Under the pieces are notes generated by a model. It had not been told where the DNA came from, searched no databases, and was given only the letters and a program-made list of their open reading frames with translations. A DNA stretch of 64,000 bases from Roseibacillus ishigakijimensis (GTDB taxonomy: Bacteria; Verrucomicrobiota; Verrucomicrobiia; Verrucomicrobiales; Akkermansiaceae): positions 1 through 64,000 of the forward strand of contig NZ_JAENIO010000005.1 in assembly GCF_016595415.1 (NCBI RefSeq), in the 5' to 3' direction. Positions 39,844-45,413 of the stretch are shown here, in pieces. Within the stretch, counting starts at the first letter, position 1; each line of letters opens with the position of its first letter. Made by a program: the position numbers and the translations under genes.

Positions 39844-42800
39844 TCACTGACAAGCCTCACATTCCTCCCCATTCCGCTGGGCTTCGATGGAGCAGGCGGC
39901 TTGTTCGGCGGCCGTGTAGGAGCGGGCGGCGGGGGCCTTTTGGGCGGAGCCGGTGCTCTTTTCGATGCCGCTGGCTCCGAGGGTGCGGAGGTAGTAGGTG
40001 GTTTTCATGCCGGTGGTCCAGGCGCGGCGATACATGTGACTGAGGGTCTTCATCTCGGGCGCGGCGAGGAAGAGGTTGACGCTCTGGCTCTGGTCAATCC
40101 ACTTCTGTCGGCGGGCGGCGGCGTCAATGAGGTAGTTATAGCTGATGCCGAAGACGGTGAGGTGCTTCTGCTTGAGCCGCTCGGGGATGCCTTCAATGTC
40201 GGTGAGCTCGCCGTCGAAGTATTTCAATTGGTCGAGCATGTCCTGATTCCAGAGTCCTTCGGCCTTGAGGTCGTTGACGAGCTCGCGATTGAGGACGATG
40301 AAGTCGCCGCTGAGGTTGCTCTTGACGAAGAGGTTCTTGTAGTTGGGCTCGATGCAGGGGGTGGTGCCCATGATGTTGCTGATGGTGGCGGTGGGGGCGA
40401 TGGCGAGGACGTTGGAGTTGCGCATGCCGTGGCGGGCGATCTTCTCGCGCACGGGCTGCCAGTCCATTTTGCCACCGCGGGGGACGTCGAGGTGTTGGCC
40501 GCGTTCTTCTTGCAGGAGGTCGAGGGTGTCCTGGGGGAGGAGGCCGCGATCCCATTTGCTGCCCTGATAGCTCTGGTAGGTGCCGCGCTCGCCGGCGAGG
40601 TCGCTGGAGGCTCCGTAGGCGTAGTAGGAGATGGCTTCCATGAACTCGTCATTGAATTCCACCGCTTGCTCGCTGGCGAAGGAGTAGCCTTTTTTGTAGA
40701 GGGCATTCTGCAAGCCCATGACGCCGAGTCCGATGGGGCGGTGGCGGCTGTTGGCGGTGGCGGCCGCTTGGGTGGGGTAGAAGTTGATGTCGATGACGTT
40801 GTCGAGGGCGCGGATGGCCACGGTGATGGTCTCGCGCAGCATCTCGTGGTCGAGGGCGCCATCGTCGGTGAGGTGGCTATCGAGCACGACGGAGCCGAGG
40901 TTGCAGACGGCGGTTTCTTCCTCGCTGGTGTTGAGGGTGATCTCGGTGCAAAGGTTGGAGCTGTGGATGACGCCGGCGTGGTCCTGGGGGCTGCGCACGT
41001 TGCAGGGGTCCTTGAAGGTGATCCAGGGGTGGCCGGTCTCGAAGACCATGGAGAGCATTTTTTTCCAAAGCTCGATGGCGGGGATTTGGCGGCTCCAGAT
41101 TTTGCCTTCGGCGGCTTGTTTTTCGTAGTCCTTGTAACGGAGTTCGAAGGCGCGGCCGTAGAGGTCGTGGAGGTCGGGGGTTTCGTTGGCGCGGAAGAGG
41201 GTCCAGTCCTGGCGGGCTTCCATACGCTTCATGAAGAGGTCCGGAATCCAGTTCGCGGTGTTCATGTCGTGGGTGCGGCGGCGGTCGTCCCCGGTGTTTT
41301 TGCGCAGCTCGAGGAAGTCCTCGATGTCGTTGTGCCAGGTCTCAAGGTAGGCGCAGCCGGAGCCGCGGCGTTTGCCGCCTTGGTTGACGGCAATGAGTTG
41401 GTCGTTATGGAGTTTGAGGAAGGGGATGACGCCCTGGGACTCGCCATTGGTGCCCTGGATGTAGCCGCCCGTTCCGCGCACGGCGGTCCAGGAGCCGCCC
41501 AGTCCGCCGGCCCACTTGGAGAGGTAGGCATTGTCGGCGATGCCGCGCTGCATGATGGACTCGATGCTGTCGTCGACTTTGTAGAGGTAGCAGCTGGAGA
41601 GCTGGCTGTGGAGGGTGCCGGAGTTGAAGAGGGTGGGAGTGCTGGAGCAGAAGCGGCGGCCTTTGTAGAGCTGGTAAAGGCGGGTCACCCAGTCTTCGCG
41701 CTCGCTTTTTTCTTCTTTGAAGAGGCCCATCGCGACGCGCATCCAGAAGAACTGGGGTGTCTCCATGCGGCGGGGCTTTTCGCCGGTTTTGTCGACGATG
41801 AGGTAGCGATCGTAGAGGGTCTGAATGCCGAGGTAGTCGAAGTCGAGGTCGGCGGAGGGGTCGAGGGCTTCGGCGAGTTTCTTGAGATCGTAGCGGCCGT
41901 CGATGAGGTCGGGGCTGAGGCGTTTGATTTTGACCCCGTGCTTGAGGTAGGCCTTGAAGGCGGTCTGGTGTGCTTCCTTGAGGCCTTCGATGCCGTCGCG
42001 CATGATGGACCAGTCGAGCACCTCTTCATAGATGTAGGTGAGGAGGACGCGACCGGCGAATTTGGCCATGTCGGCGTCGCGCTCGATGAGGGCGCGGGCA
42101 TTGAGCACGATGGTTTTCTGGAGGTTCTCGGCGGTGATTTCGGCTCCGATGGAGCGGCGCAGTTCGCGCTCGAGGTCGTCTTCGCTGAGGGTGAGATTGA
42201 GGCCGATGCAGGCGAACTGGATGCGCTTTTTCAGCTCCAGACCGTCCCAGAATTCCGCGCTGCCATCGCGCACCACGGTGACGAAGGATCCCTGGTTGGG
42301 GTCCTCCTCGGGGGCTCCCTGCAGTTCGCGCAGGCGGGAGCGCTCGGCGCGGTAGAGGATGTAGCTCTCGGCCACCTTGTAGTAGCCCTGGCGCATGAGC
42401 TCGTTCTGCACCATGTCCTGCACGTCCTCGATGTGGACGAAGGCCTGGTCACCTTGGCGGGCAATCTGGGTGACGGCTCGCGCCACGCTCCCGGCGGGGG
42501 TGGGGTCTTCCTTGGAGGAAAGAAAGGCGTTGCGCACGGCGGACTCGATCTTGCTCTCCGACCAGGGCACGACGTTGCCGCTGCGGCGGATCAGGCGCAC
42601 GGGCATGGTCTGGGGCTCGCCTTCGAGGTCGATTTGTCCGTTGTTTTCCATATTGCGCTTGAAGACGAGGGACTTGGCCACGTCGTGGGCGTCGTTCTCG
42701 ATGAGGGCTTTCTCAATGAGGAGGTAGAGGTCGTTTTGGGAGAGCTTGAGGGAATTGCCCTTTTGCACCTGCGCCATCAGGCTCTTGGATACGCTATTGG

Positions 42801-43095
42801 CGACGGCCGAGACGAAGGTGCGGTTTTCTTCGTTAAAAATGCTGTCCTCGGGGGTGCGGCGGGCGATGAGGAGGTCGGTGAGGGATTCCCCAATGGCATC
42901 GGCGACATCGGCGAGGGAAAAGTGCTCTTCGGCGTTGCCCTTGGTGACGGTGATCTGCGGGACCGGCGTTCGCTCCGAAGAGGGCAGCGTTTCGCGCCAG
43001 CTGTAGCTGCGGAAGTCGCTGTTGGTGTTTTGGAAGCGGTTGGAGATGACTTCCTTGAGGGCGATGTCTTCTTCGAGGGTGATGGAGCGATACAT
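39844..43095 (-). CDS. nrdA: ribonucleoside-diphosphate reductase, alpha subunit (class I)
   Basis: A 1083-residue catalytic subunit. The first ~270 residues hold ATP-cone regulatory domains (VRLIRRSGNVVPWSESKIESAV marks one, with a second like region ahead). The barrel follows with active-site cysteines in RFCSSTPTLFN and AVCNLGS, and the NLCTEI motif. The C-terminus ends EECEACQ, the mobile cysteine pair that is re-reduced by thioredoxin. It makes deoxynucleotides for DNA synthesis with NrdB. It lies downstream of nrdB but is separated by a four-helix-bundle unit. Size and architecture resemble the chlamydial enzyme. Confidence 0.95.
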   Translation of the reverse strand: MYRSITLEEDIALKEVISNRFQNTNSDFRSYSWRETLPSSERTPVPQITVTKGNAEEHFSLADVADAIGESLTDLLIARRTPEDSIFNEENRTFVSAVANSVSKSLMAQVQKGNSLKLSQNDLYLLIEKALIENDAHDVAKSLVFKRNMENNGQIDLEGEPQTMPVRLIRRSGNVVPWSESKIESAVRNAFLSSKEDPTPAGSVARAVTQIARQGDQAFVHIEDVQDMVQNELMRQGYYKVAESYILYRAERSRLRELQGAPEEDPNQGSFVTVVRDGSAEFWDGLELKKRIQFACIGLNLTLSEDDLERELRRSIGAEITAENLQKTIVLNARALIERDADMAKFAGRVLLTYIYEEVLDWSIMRDGIEGLKEAHQTAFKAYLKHGVKIKRLSPDLIDGRYDLKKLAEALDPSADLDFDYLGIQTLYDRYLIVDKTGEKPRRMETPQFFWMRVAMGLFKEEKSEREDWVTRLYQLYKGRRFCSSTPTLFNSGTLHSQLSSCYLYKVDDSIESIMQRGIADNAYLSKWAGGLGGSWTAVRGTGGYIQGTNGESQGVIPFLKLHNDQLIAVNQGGKRRGSGCAYLETWHNDIEDFLELRKNTGDDRRRTHDMNTANWIPDLFMKRMEARQDWTLFRANETPDLHDLYGRAFELRYKDYEKQAAEGKIWSRQIPAIELWKKMLSMVFETGHPWITFKDPCNVRSPQDHAGVIHSSNLCTEITLNTSEEETAVCNLGSVVLDSHLTDDGALDHEMLRETITVAIRALDNVIDINFYPTQAAATANSRHRPIGLGVMGLQNALYKKGYSFASEQAVEFNDEFMEAISYYAYGASSDLAGERGTYQSYQGSKWDRGLLPQDTLDLLQEERGQHLDVPRGGKMDWQPVREKIARHGMRNSNVLAIAPTATISNIMGTTPCIEPNYKNLFVKSNLSGDFIVLNRELVNDLKAEGLWNQDMLDQLKYFDGELTDIEGIPERLKQKHLTVFGISYNYLIDAAARRQKWIDQSQSVNLFLAAPEMKTLSHMYRRAWTTGMKTTYYLRTLGASGIEKSTGSAQKAPAARSYTAAEQAACSIEAQRNGEECEACQ

Positions 43096-43138: not shown

Positions 43139-43180
43139 AAGTTTGCGAGTTTGTCAGTGTTTCAGTTTGTCAGGGCTTTG
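43139..43180 (+). repeat. left inverted repeat of the four-helix-bundle unit
   Basis: This 42-base arm contains AGTTTGTCAG twice. It matches the complement of 43648-43689 with five differences. Confidence 0.8.
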
Positions 43181-43224
43181 AGGGGACGAGGGCTGTGTGG
43201 GTGGAGTTGTGTGGGTGGGGTTTT

Positions 43225-43593
43225 TTAGGGGCGGGATTGGAGGGTGTTGATGAGGCTTTGAATCATGGAGGCGAGTTCGCGGGTCTCTTGGATGAGGTGG
43301 GTCGCATTGAGAAGCTCGGGTCTGCCCAGTTCTTTGCGAACGCGTTGGGCAATGAAGAGTTGGGTGCGGAGTTCGGCGCAGGAGCCTTTGGCATAACGCA
43401 GAAAACGGGCAAAGTCCTTGTCGCTGTCACGTTCGGCTCCTTCGGCGATGTTTGAGGAGATGGAGACCGCTGCCGCTTGCATCTGCCCGTTGAGGCGGAA
43501 GTCCTGCGAGCCCTCGGTTGCCAGATAGGTGTCGACGGCAAGCCGGCAACCACGTTTCCAGATTTCCAAGTTCTCAAAGGTCTTCAGGGGCAT
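43225..43593 (-). CDS. four-helix-bundle protein (23S rRNA intervening-sequence protein family)
   Basis: The 122-residue protein is all helical. It follows the TIGR02436/S23 pattern: FENLEIWKRGCRLAVDTY at the start, SISSNIAEGAERDSDKDFARFLRYAKGS in the middle and a last helix with LASMIQSLINTL. The family was first seen inside intervening sequences of 23S rRNA and also includes the Avd accessory proteins of diversity-generating retroelements, but no reverse transcriptase or template repeat is nearby. The molecular role is not known. It lies in the loop between 42-base inverted repeats, between nrdB and nrdA and in the same direction. Confidence 0.88.
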   Translation of the reverse strand: MPLKTFENLEIWKRGCRLAVDTYLATEGSQDFRLNGQMQAAAVSISSNIAEGAERDSDKDFARFLRYAKGSCAELRTQLFIAQRVRKELGRPELLNATHLIQETRELASMIQSLINTLQSRP

Positions 43594-43647
43594 GGTGTTC
43601 TTTCTTTCGCTCTTTTTCAGGCTGTCGTTCGGCAGTCAGTGCCAGCG

Positions 43648-43689
43648 CAAATCCCTGACAAACTGAAAAACTGCCACACTCGCAAACTC
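43648..43689 (-). repeat. right inverted repeat of the four-helix-bundle unit
   Basis: The 42-base partner of 43139-43180; it ends exactly at the nrdB stop codon. Confidence 0.8.
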
Positions 43690-44781
43690 TTAAAGCTCAT
43701 CATCATCTGCGGCCAGGAGGGAGCTGGACTTTTGGTATTCGGTCACTTTGCCCTCGAAGAAGTTTTGCTCTTTCTTGAGGTCCATGGACTCAGAGAGCCA
43801 GGGGAAGGGGTTTTCGGTGCCGGGCTTGAGGGGCTCGAGGCGGCAGTTGAGGAGGCGGCGATCGGCGATGTAGTCGATGTATTGCTCGAACTCCTCGGCG
43901 CTGAGTCCGACGGCGGAGACGGGGAGGCAGTCGCGGATGAATTCTTTCTCGAGGCGGATGCCCTCGGCCATGGTGTTGCGGAGGTCGGCCTGGAATTCGG
44001 CGGTCCAAATGTCGGGGTTCTCGGTGATGAGGGTGTTGAGGAGATTGCGGAAGACCTCGATGTGGTTGGACTCGTCGCGCAGGGTGTAGCGGAACATCTG
44101 GCCGATGCCGGGGAATTTGTTCTGGCGATAGAGGCTGAGGATCATGCCGAAGAGGCCGTAGAACTGGGTGCCCTCCATCACCTGGCCGAACAGGAAAATG
44201 TTCTTGGCGAGGGCTTGCTTGTTTTCCAGCACGGTGAGGTCGACATCGCGGCGCAAGGAGCGGGAGTTGCTGACGACGAAAGAGTTCTTGGCCTTGATAG
44301 TGGGCACGTCCTCGAACATCGCTTCGCATTCGTGGGGATTGATGCCGAGGGAGGAGATCATGTAGACGAGGCTGTCGGCGTGAATGTTTTCCTCATGGGC
44401 GTGGCGGCCGAGCACGAGCTTGAGCTCCGGGGCGGTGACCAGCTCGCGCACGACGTGGAGGATGTTGTCGCCCACGATGCCTTCGGCGGCGGAGAAATAG
44501 CCGATGCCCATCTTGATAATCCAGCGCTCCTCGTCGGTGATTTCGCTGCCCCGCCACTGCTGGATGTCGGTCTGCATCTGGATGTCCTCCGGCTCCCAGT
44601 GATTGCTCTTCATCGTTTTGTAGAGGTCGTAGGCCCACTGGTATTTCAGGGGGAGGATGTTGAAGAACATGGTGTCACGACCATTGATGACAGCTTTGGC
44701 GGCAATGGCGGCTTCGGCTTTGTCGCGGTCGAGAACGAAGGAGCGGTTGCCAACGGTGTAGGTAGTGGTGTGAGCGGACAT
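43690..44781 (-). CDS. nrdB: ribonucleotide reductase beta subunit, class Ic type without radical tyrosine
   Basis: A 363-residue R2 protein. Metal ligands can be placed as Glu100, Glu131, His134, Glu203, Glu237 and His240. The first is Glu rather than Asp, as in the Chlamydia enzyme. The residue four after His134, where the stable tyrosyl radical normally sits, is Leu138; Tyr140 follows at the place of the second chlamydial tyrosine. The C-terminal half (RDCLP, YIADRRL, NPFPW, NFFE) is very close to the chlamydial R2. It should therefore use a Mn/Fe cofactor. ATG at 44781 starts the conserved part. Confidence 0.93.
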   Translation of the reverse strand: MSAHTTTYTVGNRSFVLDRDKAEAAIAAKAVINGRDTMFFNILPLKYQWAYDLYKTMKSNHWEPEDIQMQTDIQQWRGSEITDEERWIIKMGIGYFSAAEGIVGDNILHVVRELVTAPELKLVLGRHAHEENIHADSLVYMISSLGINPHECEAMFEDVPTIKAKNSFVVSNSRSLRRDVDLTVLENKQALAKNIFLFGQVMEGTQFYGLFGMILSLYRQNKFPGIGQMFRYTLRDESNHIEVFRNLLNTLITENPDIWTAEFQADLRNTMAEGIRLEKEFIRDCLPVSAVGLSAEEFEQYIDYIADRRLLNCRLEPLKPGTENPFPWLSESMDLKKEQNFFEGKVTEYQKSSSLLAADDDEL

Positions 44782-45413
44782 TTTTCTAGCTGTGTGAGGA
44801 ATTGGGGGGGAACGGGGTGGGGGATTTCTTTCTTGCTTGGGGAAGGGGTTGGGTGACTTGGGTCGCCTTCGCAGAAGCACCGTCAGACTAGCGGAAAAGG
44901 GGATTGAGGGTCAACGCGATTTTGCTTATCTAGTAGTCCACAAATTATTCACATACTACATGTGGTGGTTTTACGGTTCTGCCGCATTTGTCGCATTTCG
45001 TGCAAAGGGGCGCAATGATTGACTCGGTGAGGGTTTGCGGGCCTTTTCTAACAGAATCGACCCCGGGGGCTAGGGGCGGGAAAAGTTGCGTGGAACGCGC
45101 GGCTCCACTTGCTTGCGCTGTTTTTCTAAAAAGTTCTTGGGCGGTGACTTGTTCTTCTTAGAAAAATCACGCCTGTCATTGATTGTCAGGATAAAATTAT
45201 GAATTCGGGTGCTGGCCAAAGGAACTTGACTTTTTGGGCGAAATTCTGCAATGCCCGGAAATACAGGGATTCGTTTTGTGTTGGTTTTTTTGTTCTGGTG
45301 AGTAGTGAATGAGTCAGTATGACACAAGCGCGGGGGAGAGAAAGGGCATTTTTGCTGAAAGATGAGGGAAAAGGGGAAAAATTTTGTTCGCTGATTTCGC
45401 TTGCGCAAGGCGC
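44782..45413. other. upstream region of nrdB, non-coding
   Basis: About 630 bases with no supported gene. CACAT and ATGTG form an inverted pair at 44950-44964, overlapping TTATTCACA (44945-44953), one base from a DnaA box. These could be control sites for nrdB, but neither fits a consensus well. The rest is AT-rich and without pattern. Confidence 0.4.

Follow-up and report, generated by a model that had tools for sequence, protein, structure and literature searches.

The window, a 64,000-nucleotide (nt) stretch of the Roseibacillus ishigakijimensis genome (contig NZ_JAENIO010000005.1), carries on its minus strand nrdB, then a small gene enclosed by an inverted repeat, and then nrdA (Table 1). 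The open reading frame (ORF) between the two reductase genes matches the profiles PF05635 (23S_rRNA_IVP; E = 5e-26) and TIGR02436 (four helix bundle protein; E = 9e-28), and its AlphaFold2 model consists of four helices (pLDDT 94), with the S23p family proteins 2GSC and 2RLD as its top matches in the PDB. The initial annotation had assigned this gene to the four-helix-bundle family of the 23S rRNA intervening sequences (IVSs), as these matches confirm. To our knowledge, no function has been assigned to PF05635, a widespread family familiar chiefly as a curiosity of 23S rRNA. We refer to its members as IVP genes.

Table 1 The nrdB–nrdA unit and its flanking genes, in window coordinates
Feature	Position	Strand	Remarks
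nrdB, ribonucleotide reductase small subunit	43690..44781	−	Upstream gene of the operon; from the ORF list and the sequence read
5′ arm (coding strand), AGTTTGCGAGTGTGGCAGTTTTTCAGTTTGTCAGGGATTTG	43648..43688	−	Period-8 units starting AGT; 1 nt past the nrdB stop codon
IVP/S23p gene, 122 amino acids, four-helix bundle	43225..43593	−	PF05635, TIGR02436
3′ arm, inverted partner of the 5′ arm	43140..43180	−	37 of 41 positions pair
nrdA, ribonucleotide reductase large subunit	39844..43095	−	Downstream gene; start 44 nt beyond the 3′ arm

The inverted repeat had been described as 42 bases long with 37 paired; the repeat itself is borne out, and its arms measure 41 nt and are 90% complementary. The window-right arm, which had been placed exactly at the nrdB stop codon (TAA, 43690–43692, minus strand), ends one base short of it. 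For nrdB, the ORF listing begins at an upstream GTG at 44880, and the ATG at 44781 was taken from the sequence. Both arms are built of tandem 8-mers (AGTTTGTC AGTGTTTC AGTTTGTC), a feature absent from the initial annotation, and no other arrays in the window score as well at period 8. When the left flank of each gene was compared with its reverse-complemented right flank, the IVP gene scored 33, as against a median of 10 and a maximum of 14 for the 47 other genes of the window. The fold of the nrdB–IVP–nrdA strand beats 100 of 100 shuffles (z = −3.0), and the energy of the arm duplex is about −61 kcal/mol.

Several simpler origins were considered and rejected. Chance is ruled out by the flank-score comparisons with other genes of the window and of the sampled loci, together with the permutations described below, and a terminator or attenuator is ruled out because the arms stand 467 nt apart around a gene. 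The genome contains no close copy of this arm pattern elsewhere, save a weak one (C162), which excludes a genome-wide dispersed repeat. A search of 15 loci against Rfam gave no match at the element.

Concerted change of the arms at the nrdB–nrdA site

Orthologues of nrdB are present in 36 of 38 relatives, and we compared 26 intact orthologous nrdB–nrdA loci from 26 genomes. The IVP proteins at this site form essentially one clade (support 97), three members of which sit elsewhere, suggesting one arrival and later departures. The site had one main origin of the unit, followed by long vertical residence, and the protein is under strong purifying selection, with a dN/dS of 0.03–0.19 between IVP pairs, several of which have a dS near saturation.

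The initial annotation had expected conserved arms. What is conserved is the match between the two arms of a locus and not their sequence, which occurs in the kinds AGTGATC, AGTTTTC, AGTGAGA, AGTAAAA, AGGAAAA and AGGTTTC. The likeness of an arm to its own partner (23.4) exceeds that between orthologous left arms (14.7) or orthologous right arms (13.5), and the two arms therefore change together. In a sub-clade of six loci, whose IVP proteins are 79–88% identical, only 2 of 720 pairings reach the observed mean, the observed one included. The drift of the unit is stepwise (AGTGATC, AGTGTTC, AGTTTTC), with both arms following.

The spacer is not uniform among relatives. Sister species G001 and G003 lack the IVP gene, and in many relatives the spacer is plain or holds another insert; the proposed comparison with an empty site yielded no clean one, as the spacers of the sister species hold other sequence. 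Just before nrdA, G003 retains a right-arm-like remnant, ACTGAAAACTGCAAACTGAACGCTAACAAACT, with neither an IVP gene nor a left arm (L014).

These observations bear on the proposal that the unit has become a domesticated part of the nrd operon, with the stem and its cleavage adjusting the ratio of nrdB to nrdA. The long vertical residence in 26 genomes, essentially as one clade and with the arms kept, is in keeping with such a role. However, the IVP-less sister species, one with its remnant, the many relatives with a plain or otherwise occupied spacer and the presence of the unit in many unrelated operons (below) make domestication highly improbable, and the suggestion in the initial annotation that the element sets this ratio finds no support.

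IVP units at other sites and a second cargo

Whole IVP units have been exchanged at one sugar-operon spacer in a related genus within the family (flanking genes named by eye), where eight genomes hold a unit A and four a unit B: the flanks are up to 98% identical, and the A and B IVP blocks do not align. In the flanking-gene trees, genomes with unit A and genomes with unit B are intermixed, and well-supported branches force at least two changes. Among more distant members, the spacer is plain, measures about 105 bp and contains a hairpin; these members are too diverged for a target-site duplication to be defined at this site. Several unit-A IVP genes are broken, with the arms still present, and at two loci (L219 and L226) the spacer before the downstream sugar-kinase-like gene has inverted heptamer arrays and no IVP gene. 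The nrdB–nrdA spacer at L039 likewise holds inverted heptamer arrays without an IVP gene. The IVP-less arrays at these three loci are possibly non-coding derivatives of IVP units.

The host genome itself contains six PF05635 matches, five of them above the cut-off. The other copies also lie between genes, and their arms are alike in style and unlike in sequence (GAGTTTAGAGTTGGGAG, AAAACTAAAAACGAAAG and AAGACTCAAGATTGG). At three loci of this genome, the left arm scores 33, 23 and 30 against its own right arm and 7 to 12 against the arms of other copies. Two further copies showed no arm match in this matrix; for one of them this is probably due to misplaced gene bounds, as its arms had been found separately. 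Since the five IVP loci of this genome differ in their arms, they lack the terminal repeats common to copies that define a MITE or an insertion sequence. A lone AAACTGAAAAACTGAAAAACTAACAAACTC array stands right before the start of an integrase-like gene of the same genome (L009, about 1490–1527).

Beyond this genome, we sampled 146 PF05635 loci from the family, the phylum (L076–L104) and more than ten other phyla. The widest sampling covered 80 loci, spread over more than ten phyla, and five plasmid loci; the 80 were drawn with a four-sequence query alignment and are hence biased towards members of that alignment. An arm score of at least 15 was reached by 119 of the 146 loci, compared with 33 of 250 further genes taken from these loci; the 27 loci below this score include degenerate, mis-bounded and arm-less ones, the archaeal locus L163 being an example. 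The left flank matched the reverse-complemented right flank of its own locus better than that of other loci at nrdB–nrdA (23.4 versus 11.7), in the phylum (20.4 versus 9.4) and in all phyla (16.0 versus 9.4), and in each of these sets none of 10,000 permutations of the arm partners reached the observed mean. The repeat period is 7 at 91 loci, 8 at 17 and another value at 2, and is weak at 36, and the mean lag-7 score is 23.5, against about 7 in shuffles. In most sampled loci there is a tandem unit, different at almost every locus and matched between the arms of one locus. The initial annotation had proposed a search for the arms beside other copies of the gene family in related genomes; their style recurs there, with a sequence private to each locus.

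Gene starts were called by script and neighbour calls in GC-rich loci are rough; with this proviso, 62 of 81 loci of the all-phyla set have co-directional neighbours on either side, the gaps to the neighbours are short (medians of 64 and 30 nt), and the right arm ends a median of 12.5 nt before the next start codon at the 36 loci where a start was found. The PF05635 unit flanked by inverted short-period arrays recurs between genes in many phyla, including beside an iron-sulfur assembly gene in Riemerella. On an Anabaena plasmid, an IVP gene in AGGTGAC heptamer arms lies between cas6 and cas4 of a type I-D CRISPR operon (L075).

A different gene shares this arrangement. The nrdB–nrdA spacer of genome G013 holds a PDDEXK_3 gene between inverted arrays, and across 55 PDDEXK_3 loci sampled in the bacterial family (a few fetched twice), the flanks match their own partners at 20.8 versus 9.6, with none of 10,000 permutations reaching the observed mean after removal of duplicates. 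The period of these arms is about 9, not 7. The PDDEXK_3 (GxxExxY, PF13366) genes at L237–L286 and L020 lie in inverted arrays of about 9 bp, which often begin with ACCNC (for example, ACCACGGAATACACGGAA) and are locus-private in sequence. That two unrelated proteins go with two periods, about 7 and sometimes 8 for IVP and about 9 for PDDEXK_3, suggests that arm and protein are matched.

The concerted arms might also arise through DNA mechanics only, with slippage expanding a short unit and quasi-palindrome templating copying it to the other arm, the arms being functionless and the gene an unrelated passenger. Stepwise drift with both arms following, arms that outlast broken IVP genes and stems without a G–U signature (below) are consistent with such a process. 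The concentration of the arms at PF05635 and PDDEXK_3 genes, their rarity at other genes of the same loci and the family-specific period argue against it, and we consider mechanics alone quite improbable.

Possible RNA pairing, protein recognition and mobility

Stem mismatches comprise 82 of the G–U type and 149 of the A–C type, a ratio of 1.82, where base composition predicts 1.86. There is no G–U excess among them and hence no sign of selection on sense-RNA pairing; the A–C excess, considered as a possible RNA-pairing signal, is accounted for by base composition and lends no support to strand-specific RNA selection. RNase III is encoded in the host genome, and the length of the stem suffices for this enzyme. 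A period of 7 or 8 does not follow from RNase III alone, which counts against a purely RNA-based explanation.

We consider it probable that the locus holds an IVS-type element in a protein operon, in which an IVP gene is carried between inverted arrays of a locus-private tandem unit, usually of 7 bp and here of 8. In the nrdB–IVP–nrdA transcript, the arms would form a stem about 40 bp long that holds the gene in its loop, and RNase III may cut this stem as it does in the Coxiella rRNA IVS, rendering the insertion harmless to the neighbouring genes; operons would tolerate the unit since its RNA could be removed by cutting. The initial annotation had likewise suggested that the element may be excised or split from the transcript. 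The IVP protein may recognize the arms of its own unit, and this would account for the link between repeat period and encoded protein. Slippage together with arm-to-arm templating could keep the arms matched while the unit drifts. Because of the lack of a G–U excess and the 7- or 8-bp period that RNase III does not explain, we favour a DNA unit with protein-cognate arms.

Mobility as a DNA unit, which the initial annotation had raised as an option, is likely from the sequence comparisons, and gains indirect support from the exchange of units at one site, the nrd-clade genes found elsewhere and the occurrence in unrelated operons of many phyla. The unit encodes neither a transposase nor a reverse transcriptase.

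Alternatively, IVP could be an autoregulated DNA- or RNA-binding protein, with the heptamer arrays as binding sites through which an IVP pentamer controls expression of its own or the downstream gene; the inverted layout would then give the gene a site at either end, and neither excision nor mobility would be needed. This would accommodate the purifying selection on the protein, a period that tracks the encoded protein and the right arm lying so close ahead of the next start codon. Binding sites, however, need be neither mutual inverted copies nor different at every locus, it is hard to picture one protein recognizing so many unrelated units, and the exchange of units and the copies consisting of arms alone speak for an element. 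We therefore regard regulation alone as unlikely.

Compared with the reading as an IVS-type element, a wider proposal is more tentative: PF05635 and PDDEXK_3 might be cargoes of small elements of a little-recognized, phylum-wide class, bounded by inverted locus-private arrays with a protein-specific period (about 7 or about 9), and the protein would maintain or recognize these arrays. The rRNA IVS would then be the particular instance in which such an element inserted into 23S rRNA, and cyanobacterial and Beggiatoaceae heptamers may be debris of such elements. If IVP genes ride in their own heptamer-bounded units, the rRNA IVS ceases to be an isolated curiosity, a candidate source emerges for scattered heptamers whose origin is unknown, and function becomes testable, in that the protein may bind, make or keep arrays, and what moves the unit can be sought. 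Two arms that are separated by about 470 nt and change in concert at one orthologous site also offer a clean natural system for studying how distant inverted repeats are kept matched.

Comparison with known systems

The closest counterpart is the 23S rRNA IVS of Coxiella burnetii and Leptospira, which has the same protein family, terminal inverted repeats and a size of about 430–550 nt (PMC4990558). In Coxiella, tandem GACAGAT heptamers, whose copy number varies among strains, lie just before the S23p start, and RNase III makes its 5′ cut in vitro at the first of them; the authors found no S23p made in vivo (PMC4990558). We found no open-access literature linking IVP genes in general to heptamer arms, other than this Coxiella observation. 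These heptamers and this cut uphold the 'IVS-like' label, and the claim that the nrd unit is the same kind of element stands on the gene family, the inverted-repeat anatomy and the tandem repeats beside the S23p start, with periods of 7–8 across the family and 8 here. The nrd unit has the stem-forming terminal inverted repeats and the S23p/IVP frame in the loop, but is located in a protein-operon spacer instead of an rRNA gene. It also differs in that its protein is clearly under selection its arms are locus-private and change in concert, and its cleavage is putative.

The short tandemly repeated repetitive (STRR) sequences of cyanobacteria are degenerate heptamer arrays, dispersed as direct repeats with no gene partner. 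The cyanobacterial IVP genes sampled here carry inverted heptamer arms.

The IVP model has a distant fold similarity (TM of about 0.6) to Avd of the diversity-generating retroelements (PDB 4DWL), a family resemblance noted previously (PMC10053308). Unlike in those retroelements, neither a reverse transcriptase nor a template/variable repeat was seen beside the IVP gene among its direct neighbours, nrdB and nrdA.

Finally, the TAACTGA heptamers of Beggiatoaceae, cyanobacteria and Bacteroidetes (PMC4679880) differ from IVP arms in having one fixed unit, an almost always direct orientation and no reported link to an IVP gene, but like the arms described here, they are tandem heptamers next to start codons, with a patchy distribution across phyla.
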